This document shows, piece after piece, positions 8,425-15,533 of a stretch of 64,000 bases of DNA. The position numbers were made by a program, and so were the translations under genes. Source of the DNA: Pseudochryseolinea flava (GTDB lineage: Bacteria; Bacteroidota; Bacteroidia; Cytophagales; Cyclobacteriaceae); the NCBI RefSeq assembly GCF_003286915.1, contig NZ_QMFY01000001.1:744001-808000 (forward strand), written 5' to 3'. Every line of letters begins with the position of its first letter. Within the stretch, counting starts at the first letter, position 1. The notes beneath the pieces were generated by a model that saw only the letters and a program-made list of their open reading frames with translations, was not told the DNA's origin and did not search any database.

Positions 8425-10322
8425 AATTGCGGCGGTGGTTCATTTATAAAATCACCCCGTAGTGTGCGATACCTTTTACGTGCCTCGGCGGCGTAAACAC
8501 TGCCCGGATAGCGGTTAAGAAATTCTCGATACATCTCCTTCGCCTTCTCACTATCTTTAATTTGTCGATCGTAAATTTCTGCTTGCAAAAAATAGGCGTC
8601 GTCGGCAAGTATATCCTCCGAGAATTGATTTAAGATCTGTTGAAGGAGCTCAATCGATTTTTCGAATTCGCCCCGTTTCATTTTCAAGTTCGCCTCTAAC
8701 CACAAAATATCATCGAGCATCGCTGACAATGAAACAGCTTCGCCATTTGGAGCTACTCCCGTTTTCAATCTATCGATTGATTGCATCGCTGCATCAACTT
8801 TATTTTGATAGAGCAGTAACTCTATTCGCGCAAATTCCTTGAGCGCCAGACCCGCAGAGTCAAAGGCAATGTTTTCCTTAATTCTTAAACTTAGATCAAT
8901 GGCATCGTTTGAGATTTCGCGGGTTGTCGCTTCTTTTAGAATATCAAGATGCTCTTGCGCCAGCTGAAAATCCCCTTTGTAGTACGATAGTTTAGCATTT
9001 TTCAATTTTGCTTCGTACCCGACAGGATTTTCCTTTTGCGTTTTTTCCACCTGAGAATATAACAATGTTGATTCCCATGGCTCTCCTTTTAGCAGATAAA
9101 TATCACCCAGATCAAGTTTCGCTTTTGATTTGAGGTAGAGTGATGCGCGCGGATTTAAAATAAGAGATTGAAGAATGGCAATCGCACTATCTTTCTCGTC
9201 AAGATAATTAGCATACAGTGATGCCTCGCTTCGAGCCGCATCTAACGAATTCTGATTATCGGGGTAAAGTGAAATAAAACTTTTGTAATCGCCGACTAAC
9301 ACTTTGACGGAGTCAGCGTTGACCGGAAAGGTTTTCTTAATCCTGGCTTCCCGAGTGCGAATGAGGCCCAACTTCGACAGTAGGAAATTTGGCGAATTCG
9401 GATAGGTACGGATAATGTAGCGATAAATTTTGAGCGCGTTGTCGTAATCTTCGTTGTCGAGTGCCACACGGGCCACTTCCATCGTTTTTTCGCCATCTTG
9501 CTTGTACCGTTTGTCGTACGCACGTGCTTGAATGAACGACGCATTGAAGTCTTTTTGTTGCATCGTAACCCAGATAAGCAAGTCGGCGTAGACCTCGATG
9601 TTCGGAAATTCTTGAACCTTGTCGTAAAGTAGCTTTTCAAGGCTCTGTAGTTCTTCAGGCTTCGTTAAAAGCGCTTGCATGATGTTTTTAACGTACTGAA
9701 TATTGGCGGCGTTCTGGGTCACGTACGTGAGGTATTCCTGCACCATCTTATCCTGGCTGCCCTGAATTCTGTAAAGCATTGCCAAATCCAGGCAATACAG
9801 AAATTCGTTGCCAAGGTGTCGCCTACTTTCGACCATGGCTTTAATGCCGTAGTCGATTAACGACCGGGACATAAAAAAGTCCGACATAAGTTTTATGCGC
9901 TGTACATTTTCTCTATTGTCCTGGATGAGTTTGTTAAAATGATTTTCAGCCTTGCCCATTTCGCCAGCCCTGATCAAGACAAAACCCAGGTCGAGATTGT
10001 ATTGGATGTTGGCCGGGTCTTTTTTCGAAATTTTTTTTAAATACGATTGTGCGTCATCAAAAGCGCCAAGGTCGAGCATCGTGTTGATGTAGTTGTTGTA
10101 GATAAACGGCGTGTTAACATCACTTTTAGAAAGGTCAACAAAAAGCTCAAGCGCTTTTTTTTTGTCGCCCTTTAGCAAGTATTCATTGGCCAATTGTATC
10201 TCTGAAAGGTCCTGGCTAAAAACATCAAATGAGACAAGGAAAAGGAAGCATGCACTTATCCGGAATACATGTCCCTTTATATTATTTATATATATATATA
10301 TATAGTTGTTAATATTAAGCAT
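8421..10322 (-). CDS. Secreted TPR-repeat protein with (TA)9 tract in its 5' end
   Basis: 633 residues. A hydrophobic segment (ISACFLFLVSFDVFSQ, ~residues 22-37) with an SxDVFSQ-type cleavage region suggests export to the periplasm. The rest is helical TPR-like repeats (e.g. ANEYLLKGDKKKALELFVDL, YLKKISKKDPANIQYNLDLG, YRIQGSQDKMV, YYKGDFQLAQEHLDIL) ending in a YfgC/BamD-like pattern, FLNRYPGSVYAAEARKRYR. It is probably a scaffold. Codons 7-12 are TAT/ATA repeats from (TA)9; a change of one unit would shift the frame, and no other in-frame start follows before the signal segment. The start codon abuts a DnaA-box-like sequence. Conserved neighbour of the mnmG cluster; exact role unknown. Confidence 0.8.
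   Translation of the reverse strand: MLNINNYIYIYINNIKGHVFRISACFLFLVSFDVFSQDLSEIQLANEYLLKGDKKKALELFVDLSKSDVNTPFIYNNYINTMLDLGAFDDAQSYLKKISKKDPANIQYNLDLGFVLIRAGEMGKAENHFNKLIQDNRENVQRIKLMSDFFMSRSLIDYGIKAMVESRRHLGNEFLYCLDLAMLYRIQGSQDKMVQEYLTYVTQNAANIQYVKNIMQALLTKPEELQSLEKLLYDKVQEFPNIEVYADLLIWVTMQQKDFNASFIQARAYDKRYKQDGEKTMEVARVALDNEDYDNALKIYRYIIRTYPNSPNFLLSKLGLIRTREARIKKTFPVNADSVKVLVGDYKSFISLYPDNQNSLDAARSEASLYANYLDEKDSAIAILQSLILNPRASLYLKSKAKLDLGDIYLLKGEPWESTLLYSQVEKTQKENPVGYEAKLKNAKLSYYKGDFQLAQEHLDILKEATTREISNDAIDLSLRIKENIAFDSAGLALKEFARIELLLYQNKVDAAMQSIDRLKTGVAPNGEAVSLSAMLDDILWLEANLKMKRGEFEKSIELLQQILNQFSEDILADDAYFLQAEIYDRQIKDSEKAKEMYREFLNRYPGSVYAAEARKRYRTLRGDFINEPPPQF
10287..10304. repeat. (TA)9 dinucleotide tract
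   Basis: Nine uninterrupted TA units lie within codons 7-12 of the TPR gene, just beside the DnaA-box cluster. Such a tract melts easily and is also prone to slippage. Confidence 0.95.
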
Positions 10323-10579
10323 GTCGATTTGTGGATAACTGTGAATAGAAAAGTGTTGTGGAAGTTATGTAGAAATATTGATATACGTAAATTATTGATT
10401 ATCAGATTTGTATAGCGTTGTCCACATGGTTGTATGGTGTGGATAGGAATGCTGTGGAGTACTTTGATGTGATAGAATGTTGGTAAGCGGAAAGTTATCC
10501 ATAAGCAAAATCGTGTTTTTGTTTGTGTCGGAATTTGGCCACGTTTTAGGGTAAGTATTCCACATCGTTTAACAGGTTA
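10323..10579. other. DnaA-box-like cluster, candidate replication origin element A
   Basis: This 257-base gap between two minus-strand genes holds four 9-mers with at most one mismatch to TTATCCACA: 10330-10338 (minus, perfect), 10418-10426 (plus, TTGTCCACA), 10438-10446 (minus, CTATCCACA) and 10495-10503 (plus, TTATCCATA). A weaker TATTCCACA sits at 10556-10564. The (TA)9 tract adjoins the left end, as a DNA unwinding element would. By simple base-frequency arithmetic about 0.05 such matches are expected per 250 bp on both strands, so four is a strong excess. Function is inference; no dnaA gene is in the window. Confidence 0.5.
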
Positions 10580-12268
10580 TCAGTATTTTATCAACATTGG
10601 TCCGAGTTCAAAATTGGCCTTAAGTTTAATTTGTGGGCCTGCTTTTTCAGTGGAATATAAGATGGTTGGTTCCGCGTCCGTGGCGGTAAGGAGATTGCCC
10701 GGTGTCCAAACTCTATCGTTGTTTTTGTCGATGACGAGTCTGAGTTGATAGTCGGCTGGGATGAGGTCTTGAAATGAAAACTTCTTAGCGTTGGCTACAG
10801 ACTGAATGATCTTGAAATTCGAATCCAATAACTCTACTACGAATGACTGTTCGTTAGTTTGTACTTCAACTAAGATGATTCCTGTTTCGTCGAAATATAT
10901 AGGACGGCGGTTTTCTGAGAGTTGCTTTGATGAGTCATTCTCAACTGAGACGAATGCGCCGTGTCCAAGCTTGAATGCGTAGTTGGGTGGCTTTTGTTGT
11001 TGGGGATTTTGGGTCGCGGGAGTATTGGTTGCTGGCGGTTGTGGTTTCGCGATGAGTGTGCGGTCGATTTTTTTGTCAATGAGAATTTTCCGACTTGTTG
11101 AATCTATTCGAATGTCTTGCGATGAGAATTTTATTGTGTTGAGAGAATCGATTTGATATAGAATGCTGTCAGGATTTATTGACATGATTGGTTTATTGAA
11201 TGTGATGGACGCCTTAATGGACGCCTTAGTGTGTACTGCCTGAAAGGTTTCGAGCTTTACGTTGAATGGTTCCTTGGTAATTTTTTTGAAGTTGAATTTG
11301 GCGAACAATGTCGTGTCGATTTTGTTCGATGCGCTATCGATACCTGTTAATCGTATTTTGATACTATCGCCTTCTGCGGTTGATTGATTGTAGATTTTTA
11401 CATTGTCATAAGTGTCGCCGTATACGGCAGCGATTGTAGTTGTGCCGGCGCGCACTGTGAATGCCTTTAGGCTTTTTGAGGTCTTGATGTTAAAGTATGA
11501 GTTGTAAGGTCTTGCAGAAATTAGCTTGAGTGGGCGTGTATCGAGTTTTTGAATCGGTATGGTAACGTCTGGAGTTTTATCTTTTAGCGTGATTGCTTTT
11601 GTGGTAAATCCGTACGATTCATTTTTGCTATCCACGATCAGATTTTTGTTTTTATCGAGAATGGCATAAATGTGATATCTACCTGGTTTTAGATTCTCGA
11701 GTAGAAAGTTTCCTTCGTCGTCTGTTTCTGTCAGGATCGTTGGTTTGTGTTTGAATACATTGAATGTATCTTGTTGGTATAAGGCAACAGTTGCTTGTTT
11801 TACGTCTTTGAAAGTTAGAGGATCTATAATCTTTCCTGCAATTGATAAGGAATCAATGTATGAGCCGGTACTGAATGCGGTTTTGATGTTGCGGGCAGGG
11901 TTGCGTTCGGTGATGTCTTGTATGCTGTTTCGGTAATTTACGGTATAGGTGGTGGTGTCTTTTAGTTTATTTTCAAAGGTGAGTGTAACTCGCTTTTTCT
12001 TTGCGACTACTTCATATTTTTTGTCCACGTCTGGCGTGATGATGATTTGTTCCTTCGGGTTATTGAGTGAGACGTACTCGTCGAATTCAATTTCTACTGT
12101 TTGACCGTTATAGTTTGTGGCTCCAGATTTCGGTATGGATAAGCTCGTTTGTAAGAGCGGTGGTATGGTGTCTTTTGGGCCACCGTTTGGCGTTGTTTGT
12201 CGTGCGCAAGAAACAAGCGATACAGCAAGCGTGATAGCTGAAAGGAAAGTGATATGTCGGTGTCTCAT
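10580..12268 (-). CDS. Ig-like domain lipoprotein (SbsA/Big_5 type)
   Basis: 562 residues. A lipoprotein signal ends in the lipobox LVSC, so the protein is probably tethered to the outer membrane. The segment from ~residue 35 to 135 (PPLLQTSLSIPKSGATNY, VEIEFDEYVSLNN, TYTVNYRNSIQDI, NIKTAFSTG) is an SbsA-type Ig-like domain. A carboxypeptidase-regulatory-like beta sandwich follows (DDEGNFLLENLKPGRYHIYAI). A Pro/Gln/Asn-rich linker (NTPATQNPQQQKPP) precedes a final beta domain. Its ATG overlaps the stop of the methyltransferase gene by four bases, so the two are translationally coupled. Its plus strand is unusually G-rich for a minus-strand gene. Function unknown; this is a common Bacteroidota neighbour of mnmG. 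Confidence 0.82.
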   Translation of the reverse strand: MRHRHITFLSAITLAVSLVSCARQTTPNGGPKDTIPPLLQTSLSIPKSGATNYNGQTVEIEFDEYVSLNNPKEQIIITPDVDKKYEVVAKKKRVTLTFENKLKDTTTYTVNYRNSIQDITERNPARNIKTAFSTGSYIDSLSIAGKIIDPLTFKDVKQATVALYQQDTFNVFKHKPTILTETDDEGNFLLENLKPGRYHIYAILDKNKNLIVDSKNESYGFTTKAITLKDKTPDVTIPIQKLDTRPLKLISARPYNSYFNIKTSKSLKAFTVRAGTTTIAAVYGDTYDNVKIYNQSTAEGDSIKIRLTGIDSASNKIDTTLFAKFNFKKITKEPFNVKLETFQAVHTKASIKASITFNKPIMSINPDSILYQIDSLNTIKFSSQDIRIDSTSRKILIDKKIDRTLIAKPQPPATNTPATQNPQQQKPPNYAFKLGHGAFVSVENDSSKQLSENRRPIYFDETGIILVEVQTNEQSFVVELLDSNFKIIQSVANAKKFSFQDLIPADYQLRLVIDKNNDRVWTPGNLLTATDAEPTILYSTEKAGPQIKLKANFELGPMLIKY

Positions 12269-13149
12269 TTTTTGATAATGTAGATGAGGCTAGAATAATT
12301 GTTAGATCTGCTTGCAGAAATATTGGCCATGAGGCCTGCGATGAATGCCTTTGGTAGGTGGAAGAAGGATGACTTATTACCATTCTTATACTTCTCACTC
12401 AAAAGGCTTATGTAATACGAATCCAATTTCATGGGAATCGTTTTCACAATTCTGAGGCCATGTTTTAGGAAGAGATGTTGTAAACTATGTTGGTTAAAGT
12501 GCCAGAGATGCCTTGGTACGTCGTAGGCTGCCCAGTTTGCTTTGTATTTCTTACGGTCTGGAGAATCATGGTTGGGCACGGCAATCAAAATGATCCCGTT
12601 AGTGGAGAGATGTTTTTTAAGTGTTTCAATGGTTTGGTTTAAATCTGGTACATGCTCCAGAACATGCCATAGGGTGATTACATCGAACATGGATTCATTT
12701 AATTCCGCAATGTCACTAAACACGTCGTTGTGTGTTATGTGTTGAGCGATTTTGCGAGCGGCAGGTGATGGTTCGAACCCGAAGGTGTTCCAACCCTGGG
12801 TTTGCATGTACTGAATAAATGACCCCGTTCCACATCCGAAATCAAGTAAGTCTCTTCCGGAGGAATTTCTGTGAATGATGTTCTTCTTCCAACGTAGTGT
12901 GTATTGTCGTGCGATAAGGTAAAGTCTATCGATAATAGAGTTGGCCTTATTGGTATGCGATATGTAATCCTGTGAGATATAGTAATTCGCGAGATTCGCA
13001 GAGTCCGGCTGGGGATTTGTGAGTATGAATCCGCAGGCTTTACATGCTTCTATTGTGAATTGCTCGCTTGAAACAGTGTAATCGATGCAATTGTCAACGT
13101 GTTTAAATTCGGCGCCACTACAAACTGGGCATTCGATAATCCTTTTCAT
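12265..13149 (-). CDS. Class I SAM-dependent methyltransferase with N-terminal zinc ribbon
   Basis: 294 residues. An N-terminal four-cysteine zinc ribbon (Cys7, Cys10, Cys36, Cys39) is followed by a Rossmann-type methyltransferase with motif I DLLDFGCGTGS at ~100-110 and the acidic FGFEPSPAAR motif II; ITLWHVLEHVPDL is motif IV-like. The tail has no homology I recognise. Such proteins are usually called methyltransferase-domain proteins, related to those acting on sugars or small molecules; the substrate is not evident. The gene overlaps mnmG upstream and the lipoprotein downstream by four bases each, so the three form one coupled unit. Confidence 0.88.
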   Translation of the reverse strand: MKRIIECPVCSGAEFKHVDNCIDYTVSSEQFTIEACKACGFILTNPQPDSANLANYYISQDYISHTNKANSIIDRLYLIARQYTLRWKKNIIHRNSSGRDLLDFGCGTGSFIQYMQTQGWNTFGFEPSPAARKIAQHITHNDVFSDIAELNESMFDVITLWHVLEHVPDLNQTIETLKKHLSTNGIILIAVPNHDSPDRKKYKANWAAYDVPRHLWHFNQHSLQHLFLKHGLRIVKTIPMKLDSYYISLLSEKYKNGNKSSFFHLPKAFIAGLMANISASRSNNYSSLIYIIKK

Positions 13150-15008
13150 TTGCCCATGTATATTGTTAAGACAGATATATCGGAGGGGGAAACGCCGCTG
13201 ATTCTTGCGGCCTGTCCAACAGTTTCAGGTTTTACCCTTTTGAGTTTTTCTCGAGCTTCAGATGATAAAGCTTTTACCCGGTCATAATCGAAGTCCGGCT
13301 TTATTTTGAAATCTTCCAACTCGCCGATCTTTTCCGCTAAACGCTGCTCACGTTCGATATAGCTTTCGTATTTCACCTTTATTTCAACTTGTTCCTGGAT
13401 TTCTAGGGAATTCGATTCCAGGATTGTTTTGAGTTCGTGGTTTAATGTTTTGAGGCTATGAATATCGATTTGTGGTCGCCTTAAAAGATTGAGTGCGATT
13501 GTTTTTTCACTCAGCGTGGATGTGCCTAGTGAGAGCAATTGTTCGTTTACGTCAGGTTCTACTTTATGGCGTTTTAGTGAATTGTATAGATCGTCTGTAC
13601 CTTTTCGCTTGTCGAGCATTTGCTTGTAGCGTTCTTTAGAGGCGAGTCCAATGTTGTGGCCAAACTCGGTTAGTCTTAAGTCAGCATTGTCTTGACGCAG
13701 CAGAATGCGGTATTCCGCACGAGAGGTAAACATTCTATACGGTTCCTGAGTCCCCTTGTTAATAAGGTCGTCAATGAGGACGCCGATGTAGGCGTCGGAG
13801 CGTTTAAGGATGAATGGATCTTTATGAAGGGCTGACAGATGCGCGTTTATGCCGGCCATTAATCCTTGTCCGGCGGCCTCTTCATAACCAGTTGTTCCAT
13901 TGATTTGGCCTGCGAAGAATAGTCCAGCTATAAGATGCGTTTCGAGATTCGATTTTAACTGCGTTGGTGGAAAGAAGTCATATTCGATCGCATAACCAGG
14001 GCGGAACATCTTTGCCCGTTCGAAACCAGGGATCTTTGTTAAAGCTTTGTACTGGACGTCTTCCGGTAGAGAGGTGGAAAATCCGTTAACGTAGATTTCC
14101 ACTGTATTCCAGCCCTCGGGTTCGACGAAGATTTGGTGACGTTCTCTTTCTGCGAATCTGTTTATCTTATCTTCGATGGACGGGCAGTATCGCGGGCCTA
14201 GTCCCTTAATGCGGCCCTGGAACATCGGGGACTTTTCGAATCCCTCTTTAAGTTGTTCGTGAACTGCATCATTCGTGTAGGTGATCCAGCAGCTGACTTG
14301 TTTTTCTAACGGAGATGTTTCATTGCTGTAGGAGAACTTGGATGGGTTTTCGTCTCCCGGTTGCTCCTCCATTTTAGAATAGTCTAAGCTCCTGCCATCG
14401 ATTCTAGGAGGGGTTCCTGTTTTCATTCTTCCCGCTTCGAATCCTAGTCGTATCAGTTGTTCAGTTATACCTGTTGCTGCCTTTTCTGCGGCGCGACCAC
14501 CGCCAAAACTCTTTTCGCCGATATGAATCTTTCCATTGAGGAATGTGCCGTTGGTAAGGACGACGGATTTCGCTTTTATCTCTAAACCGAGGCTTGTCTT
14601 TACTCCTACTGCTCTCCCGTCCTCTACGAGTATTTCTGACACCATCTCCTGCCAGAAGTCGAGGTTTGACGTGCGTTCGAGGGCGAGGCGCCATTCCTCT
14701 GAGAATTTCATTCTGTCGTTTTGAGTACGGGGGCTCCACATGGCGGGACCTTTCGATCTGTTGAGCATTCGAAATTGAATCATCGACTTGTCGGATATAA
14801 TTCCGGACATTCCGCCGAGAGCGTCGATTTCTCGTACAATCTGTCCCTTTGCGACACCGCCCATGGCTGGGTTGCAAGACATTTGAGCGATGGTGTTCAT
14901 ATTCATTGTCACCATGAGTGTTTTCGAACCCATCGTGGCGGCGGCATGCGCGGCCTCACAGCCGGCGTGCCCAGCGCCGACGACAATTACATCATAATCA
15001 GAAAACAT
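13146..15008 (-). CDS. mnmG: tRNA uridine-5-carboxymethylaminomethyl(34) synthesis enzyme MnmG
   Basis: 620 residues from the ATG at 15008 (MFSDYDVIVVGAGHAG). A longer frame to 15074 adds 22 residues (with the PRETSRK stretch) that are encoded by the parS-like DNA and are not part of the family, so I choose 15008. FAD-binding GxGxxG, RMKTGTPPRIDGRSLD, RYCPSIEDKI and GTTGYEEAAGQGLMAG are family signatures; the C-terminal helical tRNA-binding part is complete. With MnmE it adds the carboxymethylaminomethyl group to wobble uridine. mnmG (gidA) commonly lies close to the replication origin, which fits the parS-like sites before it. Confidence 0.97.
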   Translation of the reverse strand: MFSDYDVIVVGAGHAGCEAAHAAATMGSKTLMVTMNMNTIAQMSCNPAMGGVAKGQIVREIDALGGMSGIISDKSMIQFRMLNRSKGPAMWSPRTQNDRMKFSEEWRLALERTSNLDFWQEMVSEILVEDGRAVGVKTSLGLEIKAKSVVLTNGTFLNGKIHIGEKSFGGGRAAEKAATGITEQLIRLGFEAGRMKTGTPPRIDGRSLDYSKMEEQPGDENPSKFSYSNETSPLEKQVSCWITYTNDAVHEQLKEGFEKSPMFQGRIKGLGPRYCPSIEDKINRFAERERHQIFVEPEGWNTVEIYVNGFSTSLPEDVQYKALTKIPGFERAKMFRPGYAIEYDFFPPTQLKSNLETHLIAGLFFAGQINGTTGYEEAAGQGLMAGINAHLSALHKDPFILKRSDAYIGVLIDDLINKGTQEPYRMFTSRAEYRILLRQDNADLRLTEFGHNIGLASKERYKQMLDKRKGTDDLYNSLKRHKVEPDVNEQLLSLGTSTLSEKTIALNLLRRPQIDIHSLKTLNHELKTILESNSLEIQEQVEIKVKYESYIEREQRLAEKIGELEDFKIKPDFDYDRVKALSSEAREKLKRVKPETVGQAARISGVSPSDISVLTIYMGK

Positions 15009-15033
15009 ATATTCGTTTATTCTTTTTCTAGAC

Positions 15034-15047
15034 GTTTCACGTGGAAC
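15034..15047. promoter_or_regulatory. parS-like site 1
   Basis: GTTTCACGTGGAAC is one base from palindromic and matches the core of the bacterial parS consensus TGTTTCACGTGAAACA at 13 of 14 positions. It lies 26 bases upstream of the mnmG start. ParB would load here if it is functional; parA/parB are not in the window. Confidence 0.7.
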
Positions 15048-15054
15048 GCAAATG

Positions 15055-15083
15055 TTCTCCACAAAATTCTCCACATTTCCACA
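15055..15083 (+). other. DnaA-box-like direct repeats between the parS-like sites
   Basis: TTCTCCACA occurs at 15055-15063 and 15067-15075, each one mismatch from TTATCCACA and 12 bp apart in the same orientation; a third, ATTTCCACA (two mismatches), overlaps at 15075-15083. Together with the flanking palindromes this looks like an origin-associated segment, not a plain promoter. Confidence 0.45.
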
Positions 15084-15099
15084 AATCTTTCCGTTTCAC

Positions 15100-15113
15100 G
15101 TTCCACGTGGAAC
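15100..15113. promoter_or_regulatory. parS-like site 2 (perfect palindrome)
   Basis: GTTCCACGTGGAAC is a perfect 14-bp palindrome, a known variant of the parS core. It overlaps a further half-site GTTTCACG (15093-15100) and directly abuts the ybeY stop codon. Confidence 0.7.
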
Positions 15114-15533
15114 CTAACGAAGAGACAGGCATTCATCTTCCTTGTTTGTCATTACCTTCTTCTTTGCTTTGGTCTTGTCGGTGTAACCCAAAAGGTGTAG
15201 CACCCCGTGAATTATCACACGGTGCAATTCTCTGTCGAATTCGTTTTGAAACAGTATGGCGTTTTCTCTAATGCGGTCGATGCTAATAAATATGTCGCCC
15301 TCGATGAGATTCTTTTCTTCGCTGTTGTCGAAGGTGATGATATCAGTATAAGTGTCGTGGTCTAAATATTCGACATTTATGGTATGAAGGTGCTTGTCTG
15401 AGCAGAATATAAAATTGACCTCTCCTAAGGAGAACCCCTCTTGGCCGATAACTTCTTTGATCCAAGTGGTCGTCTTTCGTGGATGTGGTAACTTAAAAAC
15501 GATGTCTTCTGCGAAGTACTTGATGGAAGGCAT
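15114..15533 (-). CDS. ybeY: Endoribonuclease YbeY (rRNA maturation)
   Basis: 139 residues, normal length. The metal motif is HGVLHLLGYTD with His109, His113 and, at the third ligand position, Asp119 instead of the usual His of GYDH; the same substitution is common in Bacteroidota, so this is not decay. YbeY is a single-strand-specific endoribonuclease needed for 16S rRNA 3' processing and ribosome quality control. Its start overlaps the stop of the ATPase gene by one base (TAATG), pointing to coupled translation. The stop lies directly at parS-like site 2. Confidence 0.95.
   Translation of the reverse strand: MPSIKYFAEDIVFKLPHPRKTTTWIKEVIGQEGFSLGEVNFIFCSDKHLHTINVEYLDHDTYTDIITFDNSEEKNLIEGDIFISIDRIRENAILFQNEFDRELHRVIIHGVLHLLGYTDKTKAKKKVMTNKEDECLSLR

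Follow-up and report, generated by a model that had tools for sequence, protein, structure and literature searches.

Two palindromes upstream of mnmG in Pseudochryseolinea flava are almost certainly parS sites, at which the chromosomal ParB CTPase nucleates, and would together form the centromere of the chromosome. In the 64,000-nucleotide stretch of DNA analysed, referred to here as the window, site 1 (GTTTCACGTGGAAC, positions 15034–15047, unstranded) is an exact 14-bp core whose position is kept in relatives, and site 2 (GTTCCACGTGGAAC, 15100–15113, unstranded) is a perfect palindrome that abuts the stop codon of ybeY. As a sequence-only reading of the window had placed them, both lie in the 105-bp gap (15009–15113) between mnmG (gidA; 13146–15008, minus strand; TIGR00136, 851.7 bits) and ybeY (15114–15533, minus strand; TIGR00043, 103.2 bits), a gap bounded by the mnmG ATG at 15008–15006 on the minus strand and the ybeY stop at 15114. 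The sites are 66 bp apart, start to start, and 25 bp (15009–15033) separate site 1 from the mnmG start codon. The suspicion that the longer, annotated MnmG start is wrong is supported by the relatives, all 30 of which align from residue 1 of the 620-residue protein that begins with the ATG at 15008. A half-parS-like GTTTCACG (15093–15100, plus strand), read by eye, runs straight into site 2.

The parS element itself is known, with the consensus TGTTTCACGTGAAACA for chromosomal ParABS systems in the accessible text of PMC10197239. Both sites in the window match the 14-bp core; the outer T…A of the 16-bp consensus is absent from both, with C…G and C…C in its place. A genome search for the same word, proposed as a check on the palindromes, found the exact 14-mer GTTYCACGTGRAAC only twice in 6.54 Mb, as GTTTCACGTGGAAC and GTTCCACGTGGAAC, and the reversed control word not at all; by an arithmetic estimate, about 0.1 exact copies per genome would be expected by chance. 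Among the matches listed, in which exact copies ranked first, there were no one-mismatch copies in this genome. At up to two mismatches, 67 places for the 14-mer compare with 77 for the control word, which is background, and that search therefore carries no weight. The contig that holds the sites is 1.17 Mb long, and they lie more than 400 kb from either end.

Conservation of the palindrome at this position, on which the sequence-only reading had staked its case, is evident within the GTDB family: parS sites lie between ybeY and mnmG at all 30 loci examined (the first 30 extracted). The exact 14-mer is present in 140 of 148 sampled family genomes, 100 of which carry exactly two copies; eight have none, 12 have one, 20 three, six four and two five. 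These 306 sites compare with 11 sites, counted by eye, of the control word in the same genomes. Seven of the eight family genomes lacking the 14-mer (all but G062, which is 52% complete) were queried for mnmG and none gave a match; their assemblies apparently lack the locus. Five of these seven genomes, G024, G048, G069, G087, G115, G144 and G145, are 90–96% complete, and it is the origin region that seems to be missing.

The Bacteroidota sampled mostly carry parS sites and, where position was checked, carry them mostly beside mnmG. The exact 14-mer occurs in 359 of 392 genomes of the phylum sample, a count of genome-wide presence in which a minority of sites was placed relative to mnmG. Placement was mapped at 80 named mnmG loci, the best 80 of at least 590; within 500 bp upstream of the gene, 61 have a site with at most one mismatch and 55 have an exact site. 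The density of exact sites at these loci is 2.7 per kb in those 500 bp, 0.15–0.21 per kb in the next 500-bp bins upstream and downstream, and 0.005–0.015 per kb inside mnmG or further out. The 117 upstream sites with at most one mismatch read T-GTTYCACGTGRAAC-A, with the outer T/A at 75%. A shuffled-palindrome control reached up to 31 of the 80 loci; because the shuffling could produce words that fit the motif itself, this control was not relied on. Among the 19 loci where no site, even with one mismatch allowed, falls in the 500 bp ahead of mnmG are Lewinella/Saprospiraceae and Hymenobacter entries. No site at this tolerance was found anywhere in the fetched mnmG locus of L114 and L119 (Hymenobacter), of L118, L123, L124, L128, L138–L140, L145, L150 and L164 (mostly Lewinella/Saprospiraceae), or of L127, L141, L143, L158 and L162.

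Genomes with no exact copy were queried for ParB and mnmG in 30 of 41 cases (7 of 8 from the family, 23 of 33 from the phylum sample). The mnmG gene was full in 20 of them, partial in one (L343) and without a match in nine. A one-mismatch site lay within 300 bp of the full gene in 16 of the 20, upstream in 14 of those 16, and was not found within that distance in L328, L329, L339 and L341. All 30 genomes retain ParB, and a coupling of parS loss to ParB loss was rejected on that count.

The palindromes could also serve to regulate mnmG, as an operator or a leader-RNA element, and have nothing to do with a centromere. Their placement is compatible with such a role: among 60 near-relative regions with a site, the last site ends 10–27 bp before the mnmG ATG in 53. 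In 24 of the 60 regions, compared with about 2% of shuffles, the word TANNTTTG, the Bacteroidota -7 promoter element, occurs no more than 60 bp ahead of the first site, and this enrichment suggests that the sites may fall within a transcribed leader. However, the stretch that holds the word is the 3′ end of ybeY, where coding conservation could yield the same word. The palindromes moreover have the canonical parS core in a genome with a matching ParB, and ParB was present in all 51 genomes searched. Nor would a leader element of mnmG need sites at both ends of the gene (L121, L131), only downstream of it (L157), far upstream (L115) or in a cluster of nine (L135). We therefore judge a purely regulatory element very unlikely. 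The parS reading itself leaves room for an effect on the gene, as site 1 ends 25 bp ahead of the mnmG start, with 7–35 bp for this distance in 56 of the 60 near-relative regions, and ParB occupancy could also damp mnmG transcription.

Beyond naming the sites centromere-like, which the canonical core present twice, the ParA-ParB operon and the conserved position all support, the sequence-only reading had called the element origin-linked. The link to the origin is supported as well; the origin itself is better sought elsewhere in the window. A replication origin is predicted, probably at 10280–10600 (unstranded), where a TA-rich tract at about 10280–10304 is followed by five DnaA boxes with at most one mismatch, at 10330 (minus strand, exact TTATCCACA), 10418 (plus), 10438 (minus), 10495 (plus) and 10588 (plus). 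This cluster (10330–10596, five boxes in 300 bp) is the densest in the 800 kb of the contig examined, a stretch with 251 boxes in total, and a Poisson model puts the chance of such a cluster anywhere in the 800 kb at about 8e-4. The GC content at 10250–10399 is 26%. The gap between open reading frames spans 10323–10579; as called, a TPR open reading frame runs with its first codons into the TA tract, and an Ig-like lipoprotein open reading frame reaches the last box with its 3′ end. With the parS sites beside mnmG and the box cluster about 4.5 kb away, the element appears to be an origin-linked centromere, and proximity of the pair to oriC, itself a prediction, is supported.

This arrangement recurs in near relatives. 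Most of the 26 nearest named relatives (L089–L114) retain all or much of the gene order rsbW-like, ybeY, [parS], mnmG, methyltransferase, Ig-like lipoprotein, [DnaA boxes], TPR protein, and 23 of the 26 have at least four DnaA boxes in 350 bp at 2.1–3.1 kb past mnmG: 21 at 2.5–2.7 kb, L109 at 2.1 kb and L114 at 3.1 kb. Such a cluster was not found in L100, L106 and L107. Among the fetched flanks of the other 54 named loci it was present in only six (L119, L125, L149, L152, L155 and L166), two of them with the cluster upstream of mnmG, so near relatives alone show the box-based link to the origin. The two Hymenobacter loci without a parS-like site, L114 and L119, have a group of 11–12 DnaA boxes within 350 bp at a distance of about 3 kb beyond mnmG. 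Nucleotide skews, a further indicator, lean towards an origin in this region without marking it sharply. On the home contig, where the skew signals all fall within about 0.1 Mb of parS at 759 kb, the keto minimum at 750 kb and the third-codon change at 720–760 kb agree better with the sites; the cumulative G-C minimum lies at 660–675 kb, about 90 kb from parS. With 20 sample points per genome, the best GC-skew origin boundary coincides with parS in three of four single-contig relatives (G114, G030 and G411), and in G085 it is one or two samples (0.3–0.6 Mb) off.

The interval 15034–15113 might itself have been the replication origin, since three DnaA-box-like repeats stand between the two sites. 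The repeats are there as the sequence-only reading described them: two copies of TTCTCCACA at 15055 and 15067, 12 bp apart, and a degenerate third, ATTTCCACA, at 15075–15083, these plus-strand 9-mers having one, one and two mismatches to TTATCCACA. Read on the minus strand, they form a spacer element, TGTGGAAATGTGGAGAATTTTGTGG (15059–15083), of three TGTGG-led DnaA-box-like repeats, and the corresponding pattern TGTGGAAATGTGG...TTTTGTGG has its single match in the genome here. Between their last two parS sites, six genomes of two genera retain the element, namely our own, G074 and G127 of the same genus, and G136, G093 and G015 of genus g16, with one unit changed in G136; the homologous units in the five relatives have one to three mismatches to TTATCCACA. 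It was not found in the other near-relative and family loci scanned. The spacer repeats are a real element, these two genera being the only ones in which they were seen, and they may bind DnaA weakly. As an origin they have been replaced by the cluster at 10280–10600, which is stronger, is accompanied by the TA-rich tract about 4.5 kb away, and has a matching cluster in 23 of 26 near relatives; that the interval between the palindromes is the origin now seems highly improbable.

The parS reading calls for a ParB partner, and the genome provides one, which disposes of the objection that parB might be absent. The ParB model TIGR00180 matches a single gene, which lies on contig C1 immediately after that of a ParA-type ATPase, and the two make up a single ParA-ParB operon (L016). 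By sequence, this ParB is closest to solved Spo0J/ParB chains (6sdk, 173 bits). Its motifs include GERR and ENIQRE, which match the CTP motifs of ParB, GERR and ENxQRE, as well as a GKNR...N helix and SMG. In Caulobacter numbering it has R173 and G201, the recognition residues of the parS type; in the accessible text of PMC7383237 ParB orthologues keep this pair without exception, and Noc has different residues (Q173/R201). Of 31 ParB helices compared, 27 were readable and four unread, and the context of residue 201 lacks G in L223 and, in what may be an erroneous match, in L222.

These residues bear on whether the palindromes are Noc-type sites, serving nucleoid occlusion, instead of parS. 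The noc model TIGR04285 is indeed the top NCBIfam match of the home ParB, at 231 bits; this score is nevertheless below the model cut-off of 315, and the protein carries R173/G201 in place of Q173/R201. The two sites are clustered, as opposed to the genome-wide spread of Noc sites described in the accessible text of PMC7383237. A Noc identity is accordingly one to which we give hardly any credence. Chance palindromes, which have nothing beyond the short word length in their favour, are ruled out by the control words (306 sites versus 11 in 148 genomes) and the fixed position beside mnmG.

The partner genes lie away from the sites. In the home genome parAB is on another contig than parS, behind a YidC-like fragment that was identified by eye ahead of parA, and dnaA is on a third contig; a yidC match was seen at 6 of 31 ParB loci, for which the flanks spanned only 1.5 kb. 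In 12 single-contig or nearly single-contig relatives the distance from parB to parS is 0.74–3.14 Mb, measured from mnmG in four without exact sites and with the lengths of four rounded. In ten of these 12, dnaA is 0.66–3.55 Mb away, and in two it is close (0.02 and 0.15 Mb). In the accessible text of PMC4755523, oriC is commonly far from dnaA in Bacteroidetes; that of PMC10197239 likewise describes dnaA as not always an origin marker and reports a large origin domain in B. caecimuris.

The spacing of paired sites shows a pattern of its own. Upstream of mnmG, the starts of neighbouring sites tend to be separated by about 34–39, 43–48, 54–58 or 66–71 bp, the home pair standing at 66. Fitting to 69 spacings gave a period of about 10 bp, which was then tested against 35 spacings from other GTDB genera and scored 0.31–0.33 there, compared with near 0 for a jitter null (p about 0.001–0.002, periods 9.8–10.5). 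The preferred periods differ between the two sets, at 9.8 and 10.8–10.9 bp. The second set comprises the spacings of at most 100 bp among the matches listed, which come from 32 of 47 genomes and exclude the far copies of G022 and G027 as well as the larger spacings found in G029 and G038. Its genera differ from those of the G genomes in the first set, some may overlap the named loci, and spacings from related genomes include shared ancestry. Tentatively, the pair spacing looks helically phased; given the shared ancestry and the incomplete second set, this is a lead.

ParABS systems act through ParB dimers that load at parS as CTP clamps and slide, and through ParA, which moves the complexes apart. 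By analogy, ParB dimers would load on both sites in the window as CTP-dependent clamps and slide over neighbouring DNA, reaching the putative oriC about 4.5 kb away, and nucleoid-bound ParA would then separate the freshly replicated origin regions. Compared with the parS of chromosomal ParABS systems, the element has the same 14-bp core, is origin-proximal and is accompanied in the genome by a ParA-ParB operon. It differs in the loss of the outer T…A, in comprising just two sites as a close pair beside mnmG, in the distance of parB from the sites or from mnmG in relatives and, tentatively, in the phasing of the pair. In other bacteria, gidA-linked origin regions hold mnmG/gidA, parS and oriC together. 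The same three are together here, but parAB is elsewhere, behind the YidC-like fragment seen by eye, and a separate contig carries dnaA. For 12 gut genomes, including two from Bacteroidetes, the accessible text of PMC10197239 describes locating the origin by parS clusters together with GC skew; Bacteroides caecimuris and Muribaculum intestinale, treated there, are likewise Bacteroidetes chromosomes with clustered parS, but belong to other families, and neither mnmG/gidA nor a pair is mentioned in that text.

Among the matches listed from the open PMC literature, in the text accessible, we found no mention of parS anchored beside mnmG across much of the phylum or of a phased pair; an earlier mention is possible, for example in the parS survey of Livny et al. 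2007, to which PMC10197239 refers. The combination of mnmG with adjoining GTTYCACGTGRAAC sites offers a simple landmark to test for the origin in Bacteroidota, and makes chromosome segregation testable in a phylum of which two sequenced members have ParABS and no recognisable known condensin, according to the accessible text of PMC10197239. Helical phasing, if true, would suggest that ParB dimers load in pairs with a set geometry, a behaviour not predicted by single-site models. A bolder proposal, which we consider rather unlikely, is a Bacteroidota centromere rule: ParB sites would be anchored beside mnmG next to oriC, mostly as a pair on a fixed helix face, with parAB and usually dnaA moved away, and in genera g1 and g16 a DnaA-binding array between the sites would make a composite switch that couples initiation directly to centromere loading.

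Other arrangements of the sites were also recorded. Copies were located in 11 family genomes, most of them chosen for extra copies; all copies lie at most 600 bp apart in eight, and G019 has one distant copy. In G049 and G147 (genus g50), parS groups are spread over 31 and 37 kb rather than forming one pair. Among the named loci, L157 has sites downstream of mnmG only and L115 far upstream. In Vicingaceae, Flavobacteriales and Chryseobacterium records (L121, L131, L137 and L152), parS sites bracket mnmG, with one just upstream and one 10–13 bp past its end, and Terrimonas ferruginea (L135) has nine exact sites in the 950 bp upstream of the gene.
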